Assembly (NCBI RefSeq): GCF_000003605.2
Contig: NW_003157229.1
Location: 251,949-281,198 of the forward strand
From: Saccoglossus kowalevskii
Lineage: Eukaryota; Hemichordata; Enteropneusta; Harrimaniidae
Direction of reading: 5' to 3'
Length of the DNA: 29,250 nt
Shown here: piece after piece, positions 6,201-25,999 of the stretch
Layout: each line of letters begins with the position of its first letter
How positions within the stretch are numbered: the first letter of the stretch is position 1
The notes under the pieces: generated by a model
Told to the model about the DNA's origin: nothing
Seen by the model: only the letters and a program-made list of their open reading frames with translations
Databases searched by the model: none
Made by a program: the position numbers and the translations under genes

Positions 6201-9200
6201 ATGCCACCATTTTTTTATGGTTGAATATTGCGAATTTGTTTACAAATCTGCACCAAGGTGTTTAGAATGAATTGGTGTTCAGTAAATAAAGGTGTTCAGT
6301 ATATAAAGATGTTCAGCATAATAAAGGTGTTCAGTATACAAAGGTGTTCAGTATACAAAGGTGTTCAGTATACAAAGGTGTTCAGTATACAAAGGTGTTC
6401 AGTATATAAAGGTGTTCAGCATAATAAAGATGTTTAGTATAGAGGTGTTCAGCATATAAAGGTGTTTAGTATATAAAGGTGTTTAGCATAATAAAGATGT
6501 TTAGTATAGGTGTTCAGTATATAAAGGTGTTTAGTATATAAAGGTGTTCAGCATATATAAAGATGTTTAGTATAGAGGTGTTCAGTATATAAAGGTATTC
6601 AGCATATATAAAGATGTTTAGTATAGAGGTGTTCAGTATATAAAGGTGTTCAGCATATATAAAGATGTTTAGTATAGAGGTGTTCAGTAAATAAAAGTGT
6701 TTAGTATATAAAGATGTTCAGTAAATAAAAGTGTTAGTATATAAAGATGTTCAGTATATAAACATGTTTAGTATAGAGGTGTTCAGTATATAAAGGTGTT
6801 CAGTATATAAAGGTGTTCAGCATATATAAAGATGTTTAGTATAGAGGTGTTCAGTATATAAAGGTGTTTAGTATATAAAGGTGTGCAGCATAATAAGATG
6901 TTTAGTATAGAGGTGTTCAGTATATAAAGGTGTTCAGTATATAAAGGTGTTTAGTATATAAAGGTGTTTAGTATATAAAGGTGTTTAGTATATAAAGGTG
7001 TTTAGTATATAAAGGTGTTTAGTATATAAAGGTGTTCAGTATATAAAGGTGTTCAGTATATAAAGGTGTTCAGTATATAGAGGTGTTCAGTATATAAAGA
7101 TATTTAGTATAGAGGTGTTCAGTATATAAAGGCATTCTGAGTTTATACAAATTTTCTGTTTACACAAGCCCTATGTAATATCTGCTCCAAAAAAAAAAAA
7201 GCAGCATCATTACTGCTTAATCCCTTTGAGAAATGATGACCAATTGGTCCACAACTGGCAAAGAAATTATAGAAATTACATAAAATGACCAGAATGTTGG
7301 TAGGAAACATTTTATCATGCAAAGTACTCACCTTAAGCTCGTATCGAGAAGAGTCAAAACTGTCATCACTGAAATAAACATCCTCTATACTGGAAATTAA
7401 CTGTAATTTAACCAATATAATAAACAATAAGCTTAATAGTTGACTGACTTTATTAAACTCACAGGATCTGAGATTAAATTTTAACAGCTATTTGCATGTG
7501 CTGGTACATGACAATTCAAACAAGCAGCCTGTCGGCTGAGATAGCTCCGCTGTTAGCAATGCACATTTCAATTAAAGAACTGAAGATATTATTAGAAAAT
7601 AAACAATATGTATAGTATCAAAGCAATCAGACTTGCTGTTTTCAACAAAAATGTCAAAAATATTCATTAAAATTAGATAATTGAAGATATCATCACAAAA
7701 TGAACAAATTTGAGAGAGGTCTACCTGAGGTACCTATATGTATAGTATCAAAGCAATCAGACTTGCTGTTTTCAACAAAAATGTCAAAAATATTCATTAA
7801 AATTAGATAATTGAAGATATCATCACAAAATGAACAAATCTGAGAGAGGTACATGTACATGTAGTACCTATATATGCAATATCAAAGCAATCGGACATAC
7901 GGTTTTTAACAAGAAAATATCACTTTTTACCAAAAATGACAAAAATATTTACCAAAATTAGAGAATTGAAGATATCATCATGAAATGAACAAATCTAAGA
8001 GAGGTCTACCCAAGGTACATATACACCAAGTATCAAAGCATTCTGGCTTGTAGTTTTCAAGAAGTCAAAAAAGTAAAACATTGACACGGACGCCGACGAC
8101 GGACAATCACTCATATGATAAGCCCCGCTTGACAAAGTCGACAGCGGAGCTAATAAAATATGTTAGTGTTAGAACTCATATATTTCATGAACATTTGTAA
8201 TTTTTGAATGAATATCAAATAGTGTGTATGGTTATGAATGATCATTTACCTCAGCCTGCTCCAAGGGATCTCTGGCAAACTCGCGATCTTCTTCCTGAGA
8301 TACAAAAACCTTTGATTAATTGATGAAGTAATTTGCTCTTAACATGTGGCAGTCATTTCTAACTAATTTACATACCAAGTCTCGCTTTTGGGTCCCCTAT
8401 AAAATACATACTATTTGCCTCTGATACATCCATTAATGTGAAAGGCTTGAAACACAAATAATCATTAATGGACGCTGTATGATAAAAGTAAATTAGACTG
8501 TCCACTACACTGTGTAATGGAGGATATATACATAATAGTTGAAGTACACACAAGACTGTAGTTTTGTGATTTTTGCATGGGGTGTAATTTCACAGGTATT
8601 ACTTTATTTATCTGAAAAATCAACCACTGCAAAAGATCACCCATTGGCGATGTTTCAGCACCTGAGCGATCTTTTGGTACCACAAAAACAGTTGAATATC
8701 GGTTGTAAGACACATTTTTTTTTTGAGAACACAAATTAATAAGATACAAATCAGCTTTGGCAGGTTTAGTGAGAACACAACAACACTATACAAGCAAACA
8801 CACAAACCTGGTCCAACACAAGTATGTTTTCACTGCATTAATACACAATATATAAACAAGAATGACATCACCTGTCATCATTGTTACAACTTCATAATAT
8901 CATATAAATTTAGAAACAGTGTTGTTTACACCTCTAAACGTAATTTTTTTTAAATTAAAAACAGTTCAACTGTATCTTTATTTCACAATTTACATACTTT
9001 TTTCGACCCAACTGTTTCAAACAACAAATGTTTCAATTCTATAACAATCAGAACAGTGAAAATATAAATGAAAGATGAGCTGGATATTGTGAATATTTTT
9101 TTTTTTTTCAAAAAATGCCTGCTGTGAATAGGTTTCCATTTTAAGAGCTCTAATCCCCACCTCTAATCATGATCATTGAATCTTTGCCCAAAATAATTTT

Positions 9201-17900: not shown

Positions 17901-20900
17901 GACGCAATTCTTCGGAAATTCCCGAAGACTTTCCAGTAACGCAATGCGGAAGTGGATAATCGATGTCGAAGTACGATCTGTTGGAATTGATTTCAGCGAA
18001 TAAACGACATGGTTTTTCCAAAAAAACTAGTAACTATCCATTTTTGAGAGGTAAACTGAATATGGCATGAAATATGTATCGCATTTTACTTGTATTAACA
18101 GGTCATTGTTGAAGCGTAGTTTACGCACGGTTACCGTGTTCTACTCATTCACAACATGTTCACAGCGTCGATGTCCACACTGTATCATATAAAAACGATT
18201 ACCAAGATTCGTTACGCAAGACCAAGTTTTAAATTAGTTGCATTTTGAAGGGGTGGGCGCATTGCCGAATGTGACCCCTAATATAAAAATTGCGCAAAAG
18301 TGGGGGGTGGGTGCTTGCCCGGGCATGGGCGCTAACGCGGTCGAGTACGGTAAATGACATAAAGAGTGTACATGTATAAGGTCAATTAAAACATATTTTT
18401 CAAATGACTCAGAATACAATACATGCAATGTTTCTATTAGAGATGTGCTTCTAATAGCAATTAGCATAGATTAAATCTGATACAAAATACAGTGACTATA
18501 AAACTCATGTCTGCTGACATCAAACTAATTAAAAGATATTTTTTGAATTAGTTCTGAAAAAACTCACCATTTGAATGAACCTGTCAAATAATGTTTGTTG
18601 TAGACCTGATTTGTGCAATGGTTCTGATCCCTGTATGGTTGGATTCAACTGCTTGGGATCTCCCACAAGTATCAATTTCTCACATTCAAATCTGGCAATG
18701 GGTAGCAAAGATGTGGGTTCTGTCATCTGACTGCACTCGTCCAACAACACAACCTATAATGAAAAAAGTACATCTATTCAGTAAATTACTTCACATAAAA
18801 AATACCATAATAACAGATGCTCAGACCAATCCCATAATTATATTGCAGTTAATTTCAGCATATGCTAATTATCCTTCTAAATATTCATGAGCAGAAAATC
18901 TTCAACCAGGACATATTGCTGTCTTGTTCTGGATAGATAGAGGTTAAAAGAACAGTTGAAGAATGGATAGTTTTGGTTATAAAATTAAACAGGCAGCCTG
19001 TCGGAAGAAATATCTCCGTTGTTAGCAATGAACAGAACTATTAGGGTTGTACAAACCCGTTTGTTTACCTAATCTAATCATACCTACATGTACCAGCAAG
19101 TCTGTGGAAACAATAAATTCCATTTATTACTCGTTAGGCTTAACTAAAGATTATAGCCCCGATCAGGAACTATTAGGGAATATACCCTGTTCACAAAGAA
19201 CACCTTGAGGTAGCATTCCCTATAGAAAAAAGGCCTCTTCAAACGGGTCACCCTCAGGGTGCTCACGCTCGTGAGGCCTGATCCAATCATTCTCACAAAC
19301 GTTTTCACTACACCAATGGGCCGCTGGAAGCTTGTGGGGAGGTGGGCGGTTTCCACAGACTTTCTGGTAGGTATGATTAGGTAAACAAACGGGTTTGTAC
19401 AACCCTAATAGTTTACTACATCACCTACCAGAGTGTCCGTGGAAATAATAAATTCCATTTATTACTCCCAGGATACTTAGGCGACTCTTCACTTGGAAGG
19501 TCTTGGAAGGTCTTGGAAGCACTTGGAAGTCTCTCAGGTAATAGTTAATGAAGACATTCTGAGATCTCCAGAACCCTGCTCGAAGCACCTGCTTGAGCGA
19601 GGCCCCGAACATCAAAGCCAATGAGTTAGCTACCCAGCGCATCTCGTGTGCCTTCCCCTGGTGGCGTTCCAACGAACCGATGAAGAAGCAGTTAAATTAT
19701 ACGCTTCCACGACCGTATCAACAATCCACCGCGAAATGGTGATATTTGAAGCAGGGTGGCCCTGTTTGCCCCGCCCACAAACATGCGCTTCTCACTGTCC
19801 CTAGACACCTTGGTGCGGTCCAGTACCAGCTCAGAGCTCAGAGCTCAGAGCTCAGACCGGGCATAGAATCCGTTCCTGACGGCCCTCCTTGCCCACTATG
19901 TAAGTGAGGCGTGGGATGACGATCGGATCAGGGTCCCGCCCTGAGATTCTTGGAAAGAAAGCCCAGCCGAGTCTTCAAAATAACTAGTTAGTTCATAAAG
20001 GAGGCACATCCGTCACTAAAGGACAGTGCTCTTATATCTGAGCACCGCCTACCTGACGCTAGAGCCAAAAGAAAAACTGTTTACATAGTGACATACTTCA
20101 TGTCCGCCTTATCCATAGGCTCGAAGCGGAGTGTCGTAACGCCGTTAGAACCAATGACAAGTCCCAGTCAGGAGGATTGGCTAGCCCCTTGGTGTGTGGC
20201 CCCTTCGAACGGAAAGACTAAAATAGTTGTATCATAATAGAACTCAAAGCCAGTTTCAGTCCAGCAGATTCTGCTAAAACTGGGAATAAAACTGATCAAT
20301 ATCCAAGAATTGTCGATATAGATTTTCCTTGATCAAAAGATATAGGAAAAAAATTGCCTACCTTGCTAATAGAGGGACTGAGATGATCAATCTCCCTTCC
20401 GTCACACCAATCAATGTACAGTCTCCATCTGGATTCGTACAAACGTCTGGTGCCGTCCAGCTGTGCCAAAGCGAGGAACTTGGACAACTCTGCAGAAAAG
20501 CAAAGTGCTTGCATGAGTTTATTGACAGCCTCCACGCGTGATTATGGAATAGCGTGAGACTCATCGGTAGAGTGCCGTCCGACTGGGACAACAGATCCGG
20601 AAGATCCGGCGACTCGACTAGAAGTTCCATCAACATTGGGAGCCAGACCTTCACTGGCCCATTGGGCGGCACCAAAGTCAGAGTCAGGTGGGCTCAAGTC
20701 GTAATTTCTCCAACACTTGGTGCCCAGTTGGAAGTGTCCATGAGACTCCAAGAGATCGATAGAGCGTCCGTGGCGAAAGCGCTCGTCTCTGGTAGGAGTG
20801 ACATGTACGTCGGCATTCCAGTGATTGGCAAACAGGACGAAACCACCCATTTGGGGGGGGGTCTGCCACTCGGTGTTCTAGAACCGAATGCGTCGCAAAA

Positions 20901-23900
20901 TGGCGCCCGCAGCGCTGTTGCATATCTCCGGAAGGCGGTGCGCCGATAGCTCCACCTGGTTATCGAGGCCCTAAAGGAGACTCTCCTCCGCTAGCTTCGA
21001 CAATGTGGGGGAACGCGTCCCTCCCCTCCTTGTAGATGTACAACACTACTGAGGTGTTGTCTGTCCGAAGCAGGACTCTGTGGTGGTGTGTGACTTCCTG
21101 AAAAAATTTCAGAGACAGTAGGACAGTCTACAACTTCAACCAATAGATGTGGCAGTCCTGAAGGTCCCTCAGATGACCGCCCCATCCCTGGAGCGACGCA
21201 TCTGTAATGAGAGTTAGCGAGGGAGTCGTCAGATCTAGGGGTGTTCCCATTTCCAAGTACCATGCGTCCTTCCGCCAAAGAAGGGCCATCATCGATTAGT
21301 TCGACGATTGAACCCTGAACGTCAGGTGCCACATGTGGATCCTGTAGTCCAGTAAGCACCTCTGAATCGGATGAGACCGGAGAGCTGCTAACGGAACCAG
21401 ACGACGAACTTAAGTCATTAGCAATAGGCCGCATTAGTTCGCGCATCAAAACCTATCCCGTCGACTGGAGTTGGCTGGCGAACTCTACAAATGAACTTGC
21501 ATCGCCCTTGCTCCGTGTTGAACTGCATACACACCCAGAAAAACCAGGCTGTGGGACGATATTGGGTTGGATTTAGCAATATTTATTAAAAAGCCCAACT
21601 CGTGGAGGAGCATCTGCGTCAACCGAGGGGAAGGGCGGTAAACTCGTAAACTTTGCCCTCTAATGGAAATCTGAGATACTGGCTACATGAGTGGTGAACG
21701 GGAATGTGGAGGTAAGCGTCGCTCAAATCCAGCGTTGAATTCCACAAACCAGTTCAGCCGACTGAGGTCTAGGACTGGACACCCCCCCCCAAACTCTTGG
21801 GAACGAGGAAGATGTGGGAAAGAACCCTGGCAATAAATGGGGGTTCCCCACTAGGTGTATCGCCCTTTTCTCCAGAAGCCTTGCTACTTCCTGTCGGATC
21901 GTCTCTGCCTTGACGTCATCTTTTGGCAAAAGACCTGAGGGAGGGTGAGGAGTCAGAGGAGAACGCCCATCACCATCACCACGTTTCTTGGGTTATCTCT
22001 GACGCCTCCGGCCTGGGCTGCCTTGCGGTTTCGTTTGAACCGTTGAGCCGAAGTACACAAATAGCCGGTCATGCCCCTGAGGCCCTTTCCACAGGCGATC
22101 AAACTAGTCTCATGCTGGAGTAGGATAGGCGCACAGACCCAGAACTGCCTCACACTCAGCCGAAACCGCTCCTGCCAAGAGGCTAGTATGGACTTGCAAG
22201 ATATCGCACATAGCGAATCTCTGCGCCGCCAGGAACTGGCCCATCTGCCCCAGGATTGAGGTCTGTTGCTGAGCACTCAGACGGTCAGAGGTACATGCAA
22301 GGTGAGCTGACCCTCTAACACTAAAGAAGCCCATTCTATAAACTTGATGGTCTAAGTTCCGCCAGTAAGCCTGATACACTTGTAGGCATTGGTGCCGGTC
22401 AAATGACCACGCAACCTGGCTTTCCTGATTCACACTACCTGCCTTAACAAAGGTATGAGTACCGGGATCATGATTGGGAACCCGTAAAGTTTTATTTTTG
22501 TTCAGGCTGTGGTACCGCTTGAGTGTCCCGCACGGGGGACCCATCAACAGTTCGCATAGCCCCAATAGGATATTGAGTCACCCAACGGAAGGCATTGGAT
22601 GTGACTACTCCGAAACCAGGTTCAAGCCGTTTGTCCTTTTCTCGCTAAGGGTAACAATCGACCCCTCCATCGCCCTCTGAGCCCCCTCCCGTTTGGGCCA
22701 CACAAGACACCCATGGGAGTTCGCCAGCAGGAGTGGTCTCCACGCTGGCAGTAGGAGAGGAGAGCGCCGATGAAAATGTGTCCAACAGCGACTCTTCCAT
22801 CCGGTGGGTGGGATTACCACCGGCTCTGTATAAAACCAGAGTCTCGCGGCCATCACTGCCTGGTTCACAAGCTGCGACCTTAACTGCATATTAGTAAGGG
22901 ACAGCTGGGCTTTGGTTGGTTGGGTATCCTGTGACTGCCCTGACAAAGTGGAGACGTGGTAGCTGCACCCATAAGAGGGTTGCATACCACCCTGAGACTG
23001 CAGAAAGGAGTTGACTTTTGAAGCCAGATTACGCATCCAGGCTTTCCAAGCCATCTCTTCACCCTGGGAGAGCTGGCCACCTTGACTAGTACCAGTAAGG
23101 GAAGGCAACGGGGCCTGTCCCTGTGATTGCACAAGTCACTCAGGCTGTGTTGGTACCAATAAAGCCCTGGTGGATTGAACCGGTTAAATCTCTAAAGGCT
23201 GTGCAGATTCCACCTCGGAACTCGGTGTCGATGTCAGCGCCCCAGTGGGAACACGTTGTTTATCAACATCGGTAACCGTGGTGACAGGAAACTCTGATCT
23301 CCCAGCAAAGTGGTTGAACGGTGTTTGTTAGCCTCGGTAACATCCAGTGGGGAGGATTCAGATCAGCCTCTGCTACCTCAACGGTAAACGGTTCTGAAGG
23401 TCTTGTCTCAATCAACAACCCCGCTACCTTGAGCAGGGAGTCAGATCGTGACAACACTCCAACAATCTTGGCGATTACCAAGTGGAGGGAGAGATTTTCT
23501 TCACTCATTGAATCAGACATTACATCGCTAGCCTGCGGCTAGGGATTTCCCCTTTTTCGCAACTGTTACCATTGGACTATTACCATTGGATTATTACCAG
23601 CTTTTAATCGCTTGCCTTCAGCTTTCCACCTTGCCTCGCAATGTAACTACGTTTTAGGATCCCATCGATCGCAGAGACCCTCTAGACAATGCCCCGAGTC
23701 CCTGACACAACCGAGACATGAATGGCAACATGCCGGTCCCAAACAGGCATTTGTTTAAGGCAGGATGAGCATGTCTTGTGTCTTTTTTACGACTTAGGCA
23801 TATTGCAGTCAAAAAAACTTACAAGAAACAAGAAAATTCATAGCGCCAGAATTCGGAATCCGGGTGAATAAAAACTGAGCCGGCGATTCAACTAAAACAG

Positions 23901-25999
23901 GTAAAAACAGGGGCCCCTAATAATGGAAAGCCTTTACCGTAATGGAGTCGATCACCAACACTAAATTCCTAAATAATCTCAGTCATAAAACTGTAACCTG
24001 CACTCTTGTCCATGCATAGCCGAGGAGCTGAAAAATATCTGCACCCATTGGTCACGAAAACAAGAGAGAATGATTTGATCAGCGTGAGCGTGAGCACCCT
24101 GAGGGTGACCTCTTAGGAGAGGCCTTTTTTCTATTGGGAATGCTACTCTAAAGTGCTCTTTGTGAACAGGGTATATTCCCTAATAGTTTCTGATCGGGCT
24201 GTAATCTGTAGTTAAGCCTAACGAGTAATAAATGGAATTTATTATTTCTACAGATGGAAATAATGTAGGTGATGCAGTGATCTGGAGATATCATTAGAAA
24301 ATGAACAATATGTATAGTATCACAGCTGTTTTCAACATGAATTCAAAAATATCACATTTTACCTAAAATGACAAAAATATTCATCAAAATTCAAGAATTG
24401 AAGATATCATCACAAAATGAACAAATCTAAGAAATTTCTACCTGAGGTACCTATATATATGTAAGTAATATCAGACTTGTGGTTTTTACTAAGAAGTCGA
24501 AAATATCACTTTTTACCAAAAATATTCATCAAAATTAGAGAATTGCAGATATCATCATGAAATGAACAAATCTGAGAGAGATCTACCTGTAGTACCTATA
24601 TGTATAATATCAAAGCAATCGGACTTGCAGTTTTTAACAAAAGTCAAAAATGTCACTTTTCACCAAAAATGCTGTTATTGTTGAACTCTTACAGAAATGC
24701 AGAAGGGTTGAACACAATAAAGGAAACAAAAATTAAATCTGAGAAGAGTTTTATAGAAGGAAATTTTCTAACACAAATCCTGGTACACAAAGAATGAAAT
24801 ATAAACACATTTCTAGAGGACAGGACAGGACATTTTACTACCATGTTGACTCATTTTATTTATCAAAGTTCAATAAAACTCACAGGAAATTTCAGTTTCT
24901 TCATACAGGGGAAATCACAGGCTGCACATGTTACCCCAACAACTCTAACATTGGATAACTTGGCTTTGTTTTTCCCAAGACGATGTTTCTCTATTGCTTT
25001 CCGGACAAGTTGTTTTTCTGAAGGAATGAGATCACCTTTCAACATATCTTGTAATTCTCTTAACTCCTGACTTTCAGATCCTGTAGCATGGACACTGGGG
25101 GTAAGATAACAAGAAAAATATTGATGCATGTGCTCAGAAAAGTTTTATTTTATCAGAATGACTAATAGTAATATACATATAGGTATATAGTACCCAAAAA
25201 ACTCTTCATGAGCAACTCATTTAGATTAAATCCTTAAGGGGGTGGCTATATCGTTTTTATGCTTTCGACAATATTTTTTGGCTTTCAACCAACATTTTCA
25301 ACCCACTTTCATAAATGTCATCTGCACTTTAGTCTGTAATCCAATGAATCACAATGGCATATCAAGTTATATTTTTTTTTTAAATTGCCAATATACTGAA
25401 ATATTTTTAAATTAATCAATAGATTTATATATTGCCATGTTCCAATGCAATGCAAGTAAAAGAACAGTAATCCACTATGTGTGATGTTTTTTGATGAAAT
25501 CTGCTTATAAAACAAGTCTGAGGACAAACATGTTCACCAGTCAATCAAACATCAGTGAATCGAAATATGTACATAGTATCCTTTTGTGATCAGGTTGTGT
25601 ACCAGAAAAACGGATAGTGGCATGTCCAAGACAGAACCCAAACCAAGTTCCTATTTCCAAATTTGGGATTAGAATCAATCATACCTGTATGGTAAAACTT
25701 GTTTGGCTATTTTCTTCATACTTCCCACTCTGACAAAATCTTCAAATCCTACATCCAATAATCTATACATTTTATAATAGTTAATATACTTAAAATAAGA
25801 CACCATCAGTAATACATTCAACAATTACTGCTGACTGTAAAATCCATACTAATATTTAAACTACTTAACAAGCAACCTGTCGGCTGAGATACCTCCGCTG
25901 TTAGCAATGCACATTTCAATTAAAGAACAGAAAATATCATTAGAAAATTAATGATATCATCATGAAATGAACAGATTTGAGAGAAGACCTTCTGTAGTA

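Follow-up and report, generated by a model that had tools for sequence, protein, structure and literature searches.

Unequal end triplets in decayed copies of a DIRS1-like retrotransposon of Saccoglossus kowalevskii

Introduction

Can a block that looks like the ligated ends of a retrotransposon tell which nucleotides at the joint belong to the element, which belong to the host, and how the element came to be inserted? The question is raised by a stretch of 29,250 nucleotides of Saccoglossus kowalevskii (NCBI RefSeq assembly GCF_000003605.2, contig NW_003157229.1, positions 251,949 to 281,198), which is called the window here and numbered from its first letter. The textbook DIRS intermediate is a double-stranded circle, and to our knowledge the DIRS route from cDNA to inserted copy is only partly known; a study from 2020 reportedly argues, going by its title, for linear single-stranded cDNA. 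In the model of Cappello (1985) and Poulter and Goodwin (2005), as outlined in parts of PMC3266345 and PMC5633606, the ends that the RNA lacks are rebuilt and united on the internal complementary region (ICR) as template, after which the recombinase integrates the joined product at a matching triplet.

Results

The block unites the two ends of an inverted-repeat element

Both outer ends of a 5.2-kb inverted-repeat element have their complement in one block, at 19349-19467, as the original prediction had proposed from the letters alone. The structural features are as follows.

19036-24282, minus strand: decayed DIRS1-like retrotransposon, delimited by inverted termini, ICR, sister-copy ends and empty sites
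19036-19038: AAC triplet at the element 3' end, host-derived according to empty sites and sister copies
19039-19078, minus strand: 3' (right) extension, shared by the 3' terminus and the ICR, with no alignment to the other terminus
19101-19270, minus strand: 3' inverted terminal repeat, 90-93% complementary to 24086-24254
19349-19413, minus strand: ICR half for the element 3' end, complementary to 19036-19111
19411-19413: junction triplet, GTT on the plus strand, AAC in the element sense
19411-19467, minus strand: ICR half for the element 5' end, complementary to 24223-24282
24086-24254, minus strand: 5' inverted terminal repeat, complementary to 19101-19270
24280-24282: ATC triplet at the element 5' end, AAC in most copies and read as a later mutation

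In the first half of the block, 19375-19413 matches the reverse complement of 19036-19074 exactly (39/39, ungapped), followed by two small gaps, and 19349-19369 pairs with 19091-19111 at 95%; in the second half, 19415-19467 pairs with 24223-24278 in a gapped alignment. Local alignment of the 119-nt ICR with the two termini gave scores of 97 and 58, whereas the highest scores among 1,000 dinucleotide shuffles per terminus were 29 and 27; when other 119-nt blocks were sampled at 30-base steps between 19471 and 24050, the best score against both termini was 16, compared with 58 for the ICR. Read on the opposite strand, the ICR is GGTGATGTAGTA-AAC-TATTAGGG; the left terminus is AAC-TATTAGGG and the right terminus GGTGATGCAGTG-ATC. 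The GTT at 19411-19413 lies where the junction had been expected, at about 19411-19414.

The element was assigned to the minus strand because the ICR of DIRS1-like elements sits near the 3' end; its coding sense is thus the minus strand, and its length is 5,247 bp counting both terminal triplets. Two segment pairs make up the inverted repeats (19158-19270 with 24086-24198, 90% complementary, and 19101-19159 with 24196-24254, 93%), and the 3' extension of about 40 nt (19039-19078) is matched by the ICR alone. The left end falls at 19036-19038, as predicted; the right end, which had been placed at 24278, is at 24279, or at 24282 with the triplet, that is, one to four bases further out. Between the two terminal repeats of the window copy the K2P distance is 0.079, within the 0.02-0.13 spanned by 14 copies. 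An insertion that appeared to be common to both termini and absent from the ICR was dropped after comparison with sister copies; of the 3' ends compared, only that of the window copy has a TAATC duplication and an ATGTAC insertion.

Sister copies carry the same block and the same ends

The host assembly (572 Mb, 4,830 contigs) was searched for relatives. At least 119 matches to the 3' terminal region were found, with 40 of 160 candidates scored; besides the window, eight of the matches listed span exactly 19036 to 19467, and relatives with the same joint number dozens in the host genome. Our comparison set comprises 35 sequences, the window and 34 fetched loci, two of which (L019 and L032) are apparently a single locus in duplicate. 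The ICR block recurs in sister copies, which end at the same places, so that the termini proposed for the window copy hold in other copies. The ICR junction could be aligned in 29 of the 35 sequences and is GTT in all 29 (the L027 row in this count is a second ICR within the same locus). In viral contigs, the exact junction had no match, and a recombinase-end pattern had 28 matches, none of which was confirmed.

Some copies are rearranged. In L034 (G000 C4261, ~146936-147342), the 3' terminal block, consisting of extension, repeat and one ICR half, is apparently inverted in place and is bounded by two triplets, host AAA outside and GTT inside; this copy appears to be an inversion isomer between terminus and ICR. 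In L036 (G000 C2261, ~2875933-2876251), the 3' end has the 5'-end type of extension (GTT-TACTACATC), and the matching ICR half is missing. At G000 C3163:403781-403975, a 5' end with AAC and a 3' end with GAA of the same element family have little between them; judged from coordinates only, this is a possible mini-element of about 180 bp.

Coding remains of the DIRS1-like element

The coding part of the window copy is decayed, in agreement with the original prediction: its reverse transcriptase (RT) piece scores below cut-off and its YLDD segment is missing. The remains are as follows.

19526-19696, minus strand: candidate C-terminal end of a tyrosine recombinase (motif-like stretch)
21182-21217, minus strand: RNase H fragment LTLITDASLQGW (motif)
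21593-21639, minus strand: site of the absent YLDD-bearing RT segment, where TALPLG (21622-21639) adjoins QMLLHELG (21593-21616) in another frame
21622-21753, minus strand: RT fragment (RVT_1, E 0.011, below the curated cut-off)

Searches of Pfam with 20 pieces of the window copy returned this RVT_1 match and four weak matches below cut-off (Phage_Orf51, 0.0023; DRMBL, 0.17; Ydr279_N, 0.11; ATP-synt_Z, 0.06), which we took as unrelated. The window RT piece had no match among PDB sequences. In sister copies L012, L022 and L035, RVT_1 was found above the curated cut-off (E 2.5e-10 to 1.4e-8), and the best PDB match of the L022 RT is Ty3 RT (E 0.006). Seven sister copies have YLDD in an RT context; the window copy is without that RT stretch. 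The 21182-21217 fragment is presumably RNase H by its motif; the RNase H signal is weak in sister copy L027 too, with an RT_RNaseH_2 match at E 0.005, below the curated cut-off. No methyltransferase domain was matched by Pfam in the window and sister pieces searched.

The stretch at 19526-19696 lies near the ICR, at the position expected in a DIRS1-like element, and from its motifs KAHEMRW (19634-19654) and YYLRDF (19526-19543) we take it to be, probably, tyrosine recombinase. Profile, sequence and fold searches gave no recombinase match for it: its only Pfam match is the Phage_Orf51 one, the structure model of the putative recombinase end is poor (pLDDT 58.3, pTM 0.31), and Foldseek with that model found nothing better than E 9.6. 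Next to this stretch, at 19467-19518, the match with several sister copies stops and resumes about 360-440 bp further on in those copies, compared with 51 bp in the window; on this alignment, therefore, a deletion seems to have cost the window copy some 300-400 bp between ICR and coding part.

These observations bear on two other readings of the locus. The block contains a partial palindrome (87% pairing of 19350-19372 with 19423-19445), as would suit a small palindrome inserted independently of the element, or an inverted repeat that arose by chance; the block with its GTT joint recurs, however, in 29 of the 35 sequences, mostly beside the same 3' terminal region, and shuffled sequences never come near its alignment scores. 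Since all 29 alignable joints read GTT, the block is no palindrome peculiar to the window copy, and the chance that it is foreign to the element is, in our estimate, negligible. An origin in one of the other tyrosine-recombinase groups seems just as improbable: PAT, Ngaro and VIPER likewise encode a tyrosine recombinase, to judge from parts of PMC3266345, but PAT-like elements and Ngaro have split direct repeats, whereas the element here has inverted termini and an ICR. Among the repeats found in the element there was no A1-B1-A2-B2 arrangement of split direct repeats, and the sole direct pair at its ends, 19091-19132 with 19426-19467, consists of terminal repeat and ICR. The DIRS-like identity originally proposed is borne out by the inverted termini, the ICR, the 3' extension and the sister copies with RVT_1.

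The element lies in a host repeat without target duplication

On both sides, the window copy is flanked by a host repeat of which unoccupied copies occur elsewhere in the window.

7519-7609, plus strand: empty paralogous site, target AAAG-AAC-TGAAG
18988-19035, plus strand: left flank, host repeat, without 11 nt present in paralogues
24283-24620, plus strand: right flank, the same host repeat continued (by comparison with empty paralogues)
25867-25957, plus strand: empty paralogous site, target AAAG-AAC-AGAAA

When the flanks are joined, they give the unoccupied sequence with one AAC and without target duplication; the left flank has an 11-nt deletion. Matches to the right flank in the fetched DNA have AAC at the target in 11 of 12 cases (the other, a 23-bp match, has AAT), and the ATC at the right end is therefore best read as a mutated AAC. 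Matches to the left flank have AAC in 1 of 13 by ungapped extrapolation; they fail to give AAC because this flank is without the 11 nt. Elsewhere in the window, a long array of 17-bp tandem repeats occupies 6252-7172.

Empty sites of other copies were read in the same way, the triplets being extrapolated 0-12 nt beyond the end of the alignment. AAA was found in 31 of 32 empty sites of L014 and in 17 of 20 of L020, and AAC in both of those of L038 (2/2); the 3' triplets of these copies are AAA, AAA and AAC, respectively. In all four copies with informative empty sites (window, L014, L020 and L038), the 3' triplet thus equals the target triplet. Matches for L029 (CAT, TTG) and L041 (TAA) disagree with the 3' triplet, and their alignments end 3-11 nt before the joint. 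For L012, a search with joined flanks matched only its own two flanks. Across copies the preferred target is R-AAN-T, with A in 15, G in 7 and C in 3 of 25 copies before the triplet and T in 13 of 17 after it; it resembles the element's own A-AAC-T, and the match between target triplet and junction is only partial (AAN).

The two ends carry different triplets

Among the fetched copies, the 3' end reads AAC in 7, AAT in 7, AAA in 5 and another triplet in 6 of 25 (TAA, CAA, GTT, AGC, GAA and GAC). The ten sequences omitted from this count of 35 had lost the end (L026, L028, L035), were rearranged (L034, L036), had no 3' end (L037, L039, L040, L042) or duplicated another locus (L032, a duplicate of L019). 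The 5' end reads AAC in 14 of the 17 copies scored out of 35, including L030, the others being ATC in the window and in L013 and AAT in L028; L042 was read by eye (TAC) and kept outside the test, L040 has lost the end, and in the rest the end is absent or beyond the fetched stretch. The third base is C in 9 of 25 copies at the 3' end and in 16 of 17 at the 5' end (Fisher p 2.7e-4).

Genome-wide exact patterns, which are independent of the chosen loci, gave the same picture. The pattern for 5' ends and ICRs produced 56 rows, sorted by eye from the following bases into 27 of ICR type (C3952:139406 was sorted by its position and a deletion) and 29 of 5'-end type; the pattern for 3' ends and ICRs produced 46, sorted from the preceding bases into 18 of ICR type and 28 of 3'-end type. 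AAC is the triplet in 26/27 and 18/18 of the ICR-type rows and in 24/29 of the 5' ends (others GAA, AAT, TGG, TTT and GGG). At the 3' end, by contrast with the 5' end, AAC was found in 6/28 (Fisher p 4.1e-6), with AAT in 7, AAA in 6, AAG in 1, GAA in 3 and TAA, GAG, GTT, TGC and TGT in one each, which makes 8/28 non-AAN overall; the C4261 row among these 28 comes from the inverted block of L034, and the pattern misses ends with C nine bases out. Reversed patterns gave 7 matches versus 56 and 2 versus 46, respectively; with 7 chance matches in the control, some of the 29 5'-end rows may therefore be chance.

Twelve copies have a 3' third base other than C and a 5' end that could be called. The 5' third base is C in 11 of them, and none of the copies read at both ends has the reverse polarity at this base; four of the pairings (C4465, C1562, C3952 and C3493) rest on coordinates, and the 5' call of C1562 rests only on the position where the alignment ends. 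The exception, on contig C2978 (G000 C2978:45324 and 49410), has AAT at its 3' end and GGG at its 5' end, 4.1 kb apart, and this GGG is probably real. The window copy itself has AAC at its 3' end, ATC at its 5' end and an AAC target.

Since 3' ends are mostly AAN and match the landing site in four copies, the element triplet is assigned to the 5' end and the target triplet to the 3' end. As far as these sequences allow, the comparison shows that the 5' end mostly keeps the triplet of the element, which is AAC on the plus strand and GTT in sense, and the 3' end mostly that of the target. This modifies one point of the original prediction: AAC is indeed present both at the left junction and inside the block, but the left AAC is not a copy of the one in the block, since the left triplet follows the host target; across copies it is the right end, the element 5' end, and not the left one, that carries the block's AAC.

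Discussion

We consider it very probable that the element is a dead DIRS1-like tyrosine-recombinase retrotransposon, with the whole account of ICR, insertion and end polarity given here. As a structure, the window element is a known one, correctly described in a dead copy; the asymmetry of the ends goes beyond the textbook description of DIRS elements and offers one testable clue to mechanism.

Tyrosine recombinases cleave each strand 5' of the core. Recombination would need only a partial match between the target (R-AAN-T) and A-AAC-T in the element. Exchange of the sense strand alone would then leave flank-GTT(element)-element-NTT(host)-flank, which is the polarity seen; exchange of the antisense strand alone would leave the opposite polarity, and unbiased exchange of both strands a mixture. 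Cleavage 5' of the core, taken with the polarity seen, would make a single strand the decisive one, which is what a single-stranded donor should give; the donor would be single-stranded, or double-stranded with an outcome always set by the sense strand. The end triplets thus suggest that the sense strand decides recombination, through a mechanism whose intermediate we infer rather than observe and whose chemistry is that known from tyrosine recombinases generally. In the insertion of integron cassettes, a tyrosine recombinase acts at a GTT/AAC triplet and a single-stranded donor makes one strand decisive. The analogy is one of mechanism only. We propose tentatively, with rather less than even confidence, that in DIRS integration, too, the donor may be single-stranded or splinted and its sense strand decisive, and that the dead copies record this polarity.

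Two other origins of the unequal ends have to be weighed against a decisive sense strand. The copies are old (terminal repeats at K2P 0.02-0.13 in 14 copies), and all 3' triplets might have been AAC at insertion and have decayed since. Against this, the 12 bases just inside the 3' end have changed at about 7% per base, yet the third base of the triplet is non-C in 16 of 25 copies (p 1.7e-12 at a decay rate of 7.7% per base, a rate slightly raised by out-of-register bases of L030, which works against the host-triplet reading). Moreover, 5' ends in the same copies are mostly still AAC, and the empty sites of L014 and L020 read AAA. By these counts decay alone is refuted as the origin of the 3' third base, and a general decay of AAC ends is highly improbable; position 1, non-A in 5 of 25 copies (p 0.04), could be partly decay. 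The other alternative is a double-stranded circle that exchanges both strands and is mismatched at both ends, biased repair or replication then keeping the element base at the 5' end and the host base at the 3' end. Circular intermediates have been reported for Dictyostelium DIRS-1, according to parts of PMC5633606, and a complete bias in the double-stranded route would yield identical final sequences. This route requires, however, opposite outcomes at the two ends every time, and unbiased segregation would leave about half of the copies reversed, whereas 11 of 12 have the 5' C and none read at both ends is reversed; we give it a possible but minority place. Old copies would preserve in their end triplets a ready-made record of the strand exchanged. 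The asymmetry makes the strand question testable on existing genomes, and a consistent polarity, if found in other species, would directly constrain the step from cDNA to insertion.

Comparison with known DIRS elements

The element has inverted repeats, an ICR that matches two ends, a 3-bp junction, an extension at one end (3'), no target duplication and a Ty3-like RT, all common in the DIRS1-like superfamily (Dictyostelium DIRS-1) as described in parts of PMC3266345. Its size falls in the 4.0-6.3 kb range given there for DIRS1-like elements (Piednoel et al., 2011; PMC3266345), and its GTT start is that of SkoDIRS2, GaDIRS1 and GaDIRS2. According to the same parts of PMC3266345, the terminal trinucleotide is complementary to the junction in almost all DIRS elements; here, unlike in that description, copies differ in their 3' triplet according to the target. 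The section around Table 3 of that paper has no comment on end asymmetry, and we found no discussion of it in the parts of the DIRS literature searched; the original accounts of Cappello, Goodwin and Poulter may contain it.

Table 3 of PMC3266345 includes 28 DIRS elements, of which 26 have a 3-bp junction and 18 match it at both ends. By our count from this table, the eight mismatches at one end concern the 'end', on the 3' side, in seven elements (AcDIRS1, AcDIRS2, AmDIRS2, BmDIRS1, NveDIRS6b, TnDIRS1a and XtDIRS2) and the 'start', on the 5' side, in one. This one, AcasDIRS1, is extended on the left and not on the right. The published elements in this table thus lean toward the polarity seen here (7 versus 1; sign test p 0.07 two-sided, 0.035 one-sided). 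In TnDIRS1a of Tetraodon (GTT/GAT/AAC) and XtDIRS2 of Xenopus (TTT/TAT/AAA), as listed in PMC3266345, the start matches the circular junction and the end does not; there the mismatch is in the middle base, whereas in the Saccoglossus copies it is mostly in the base next to the element body.
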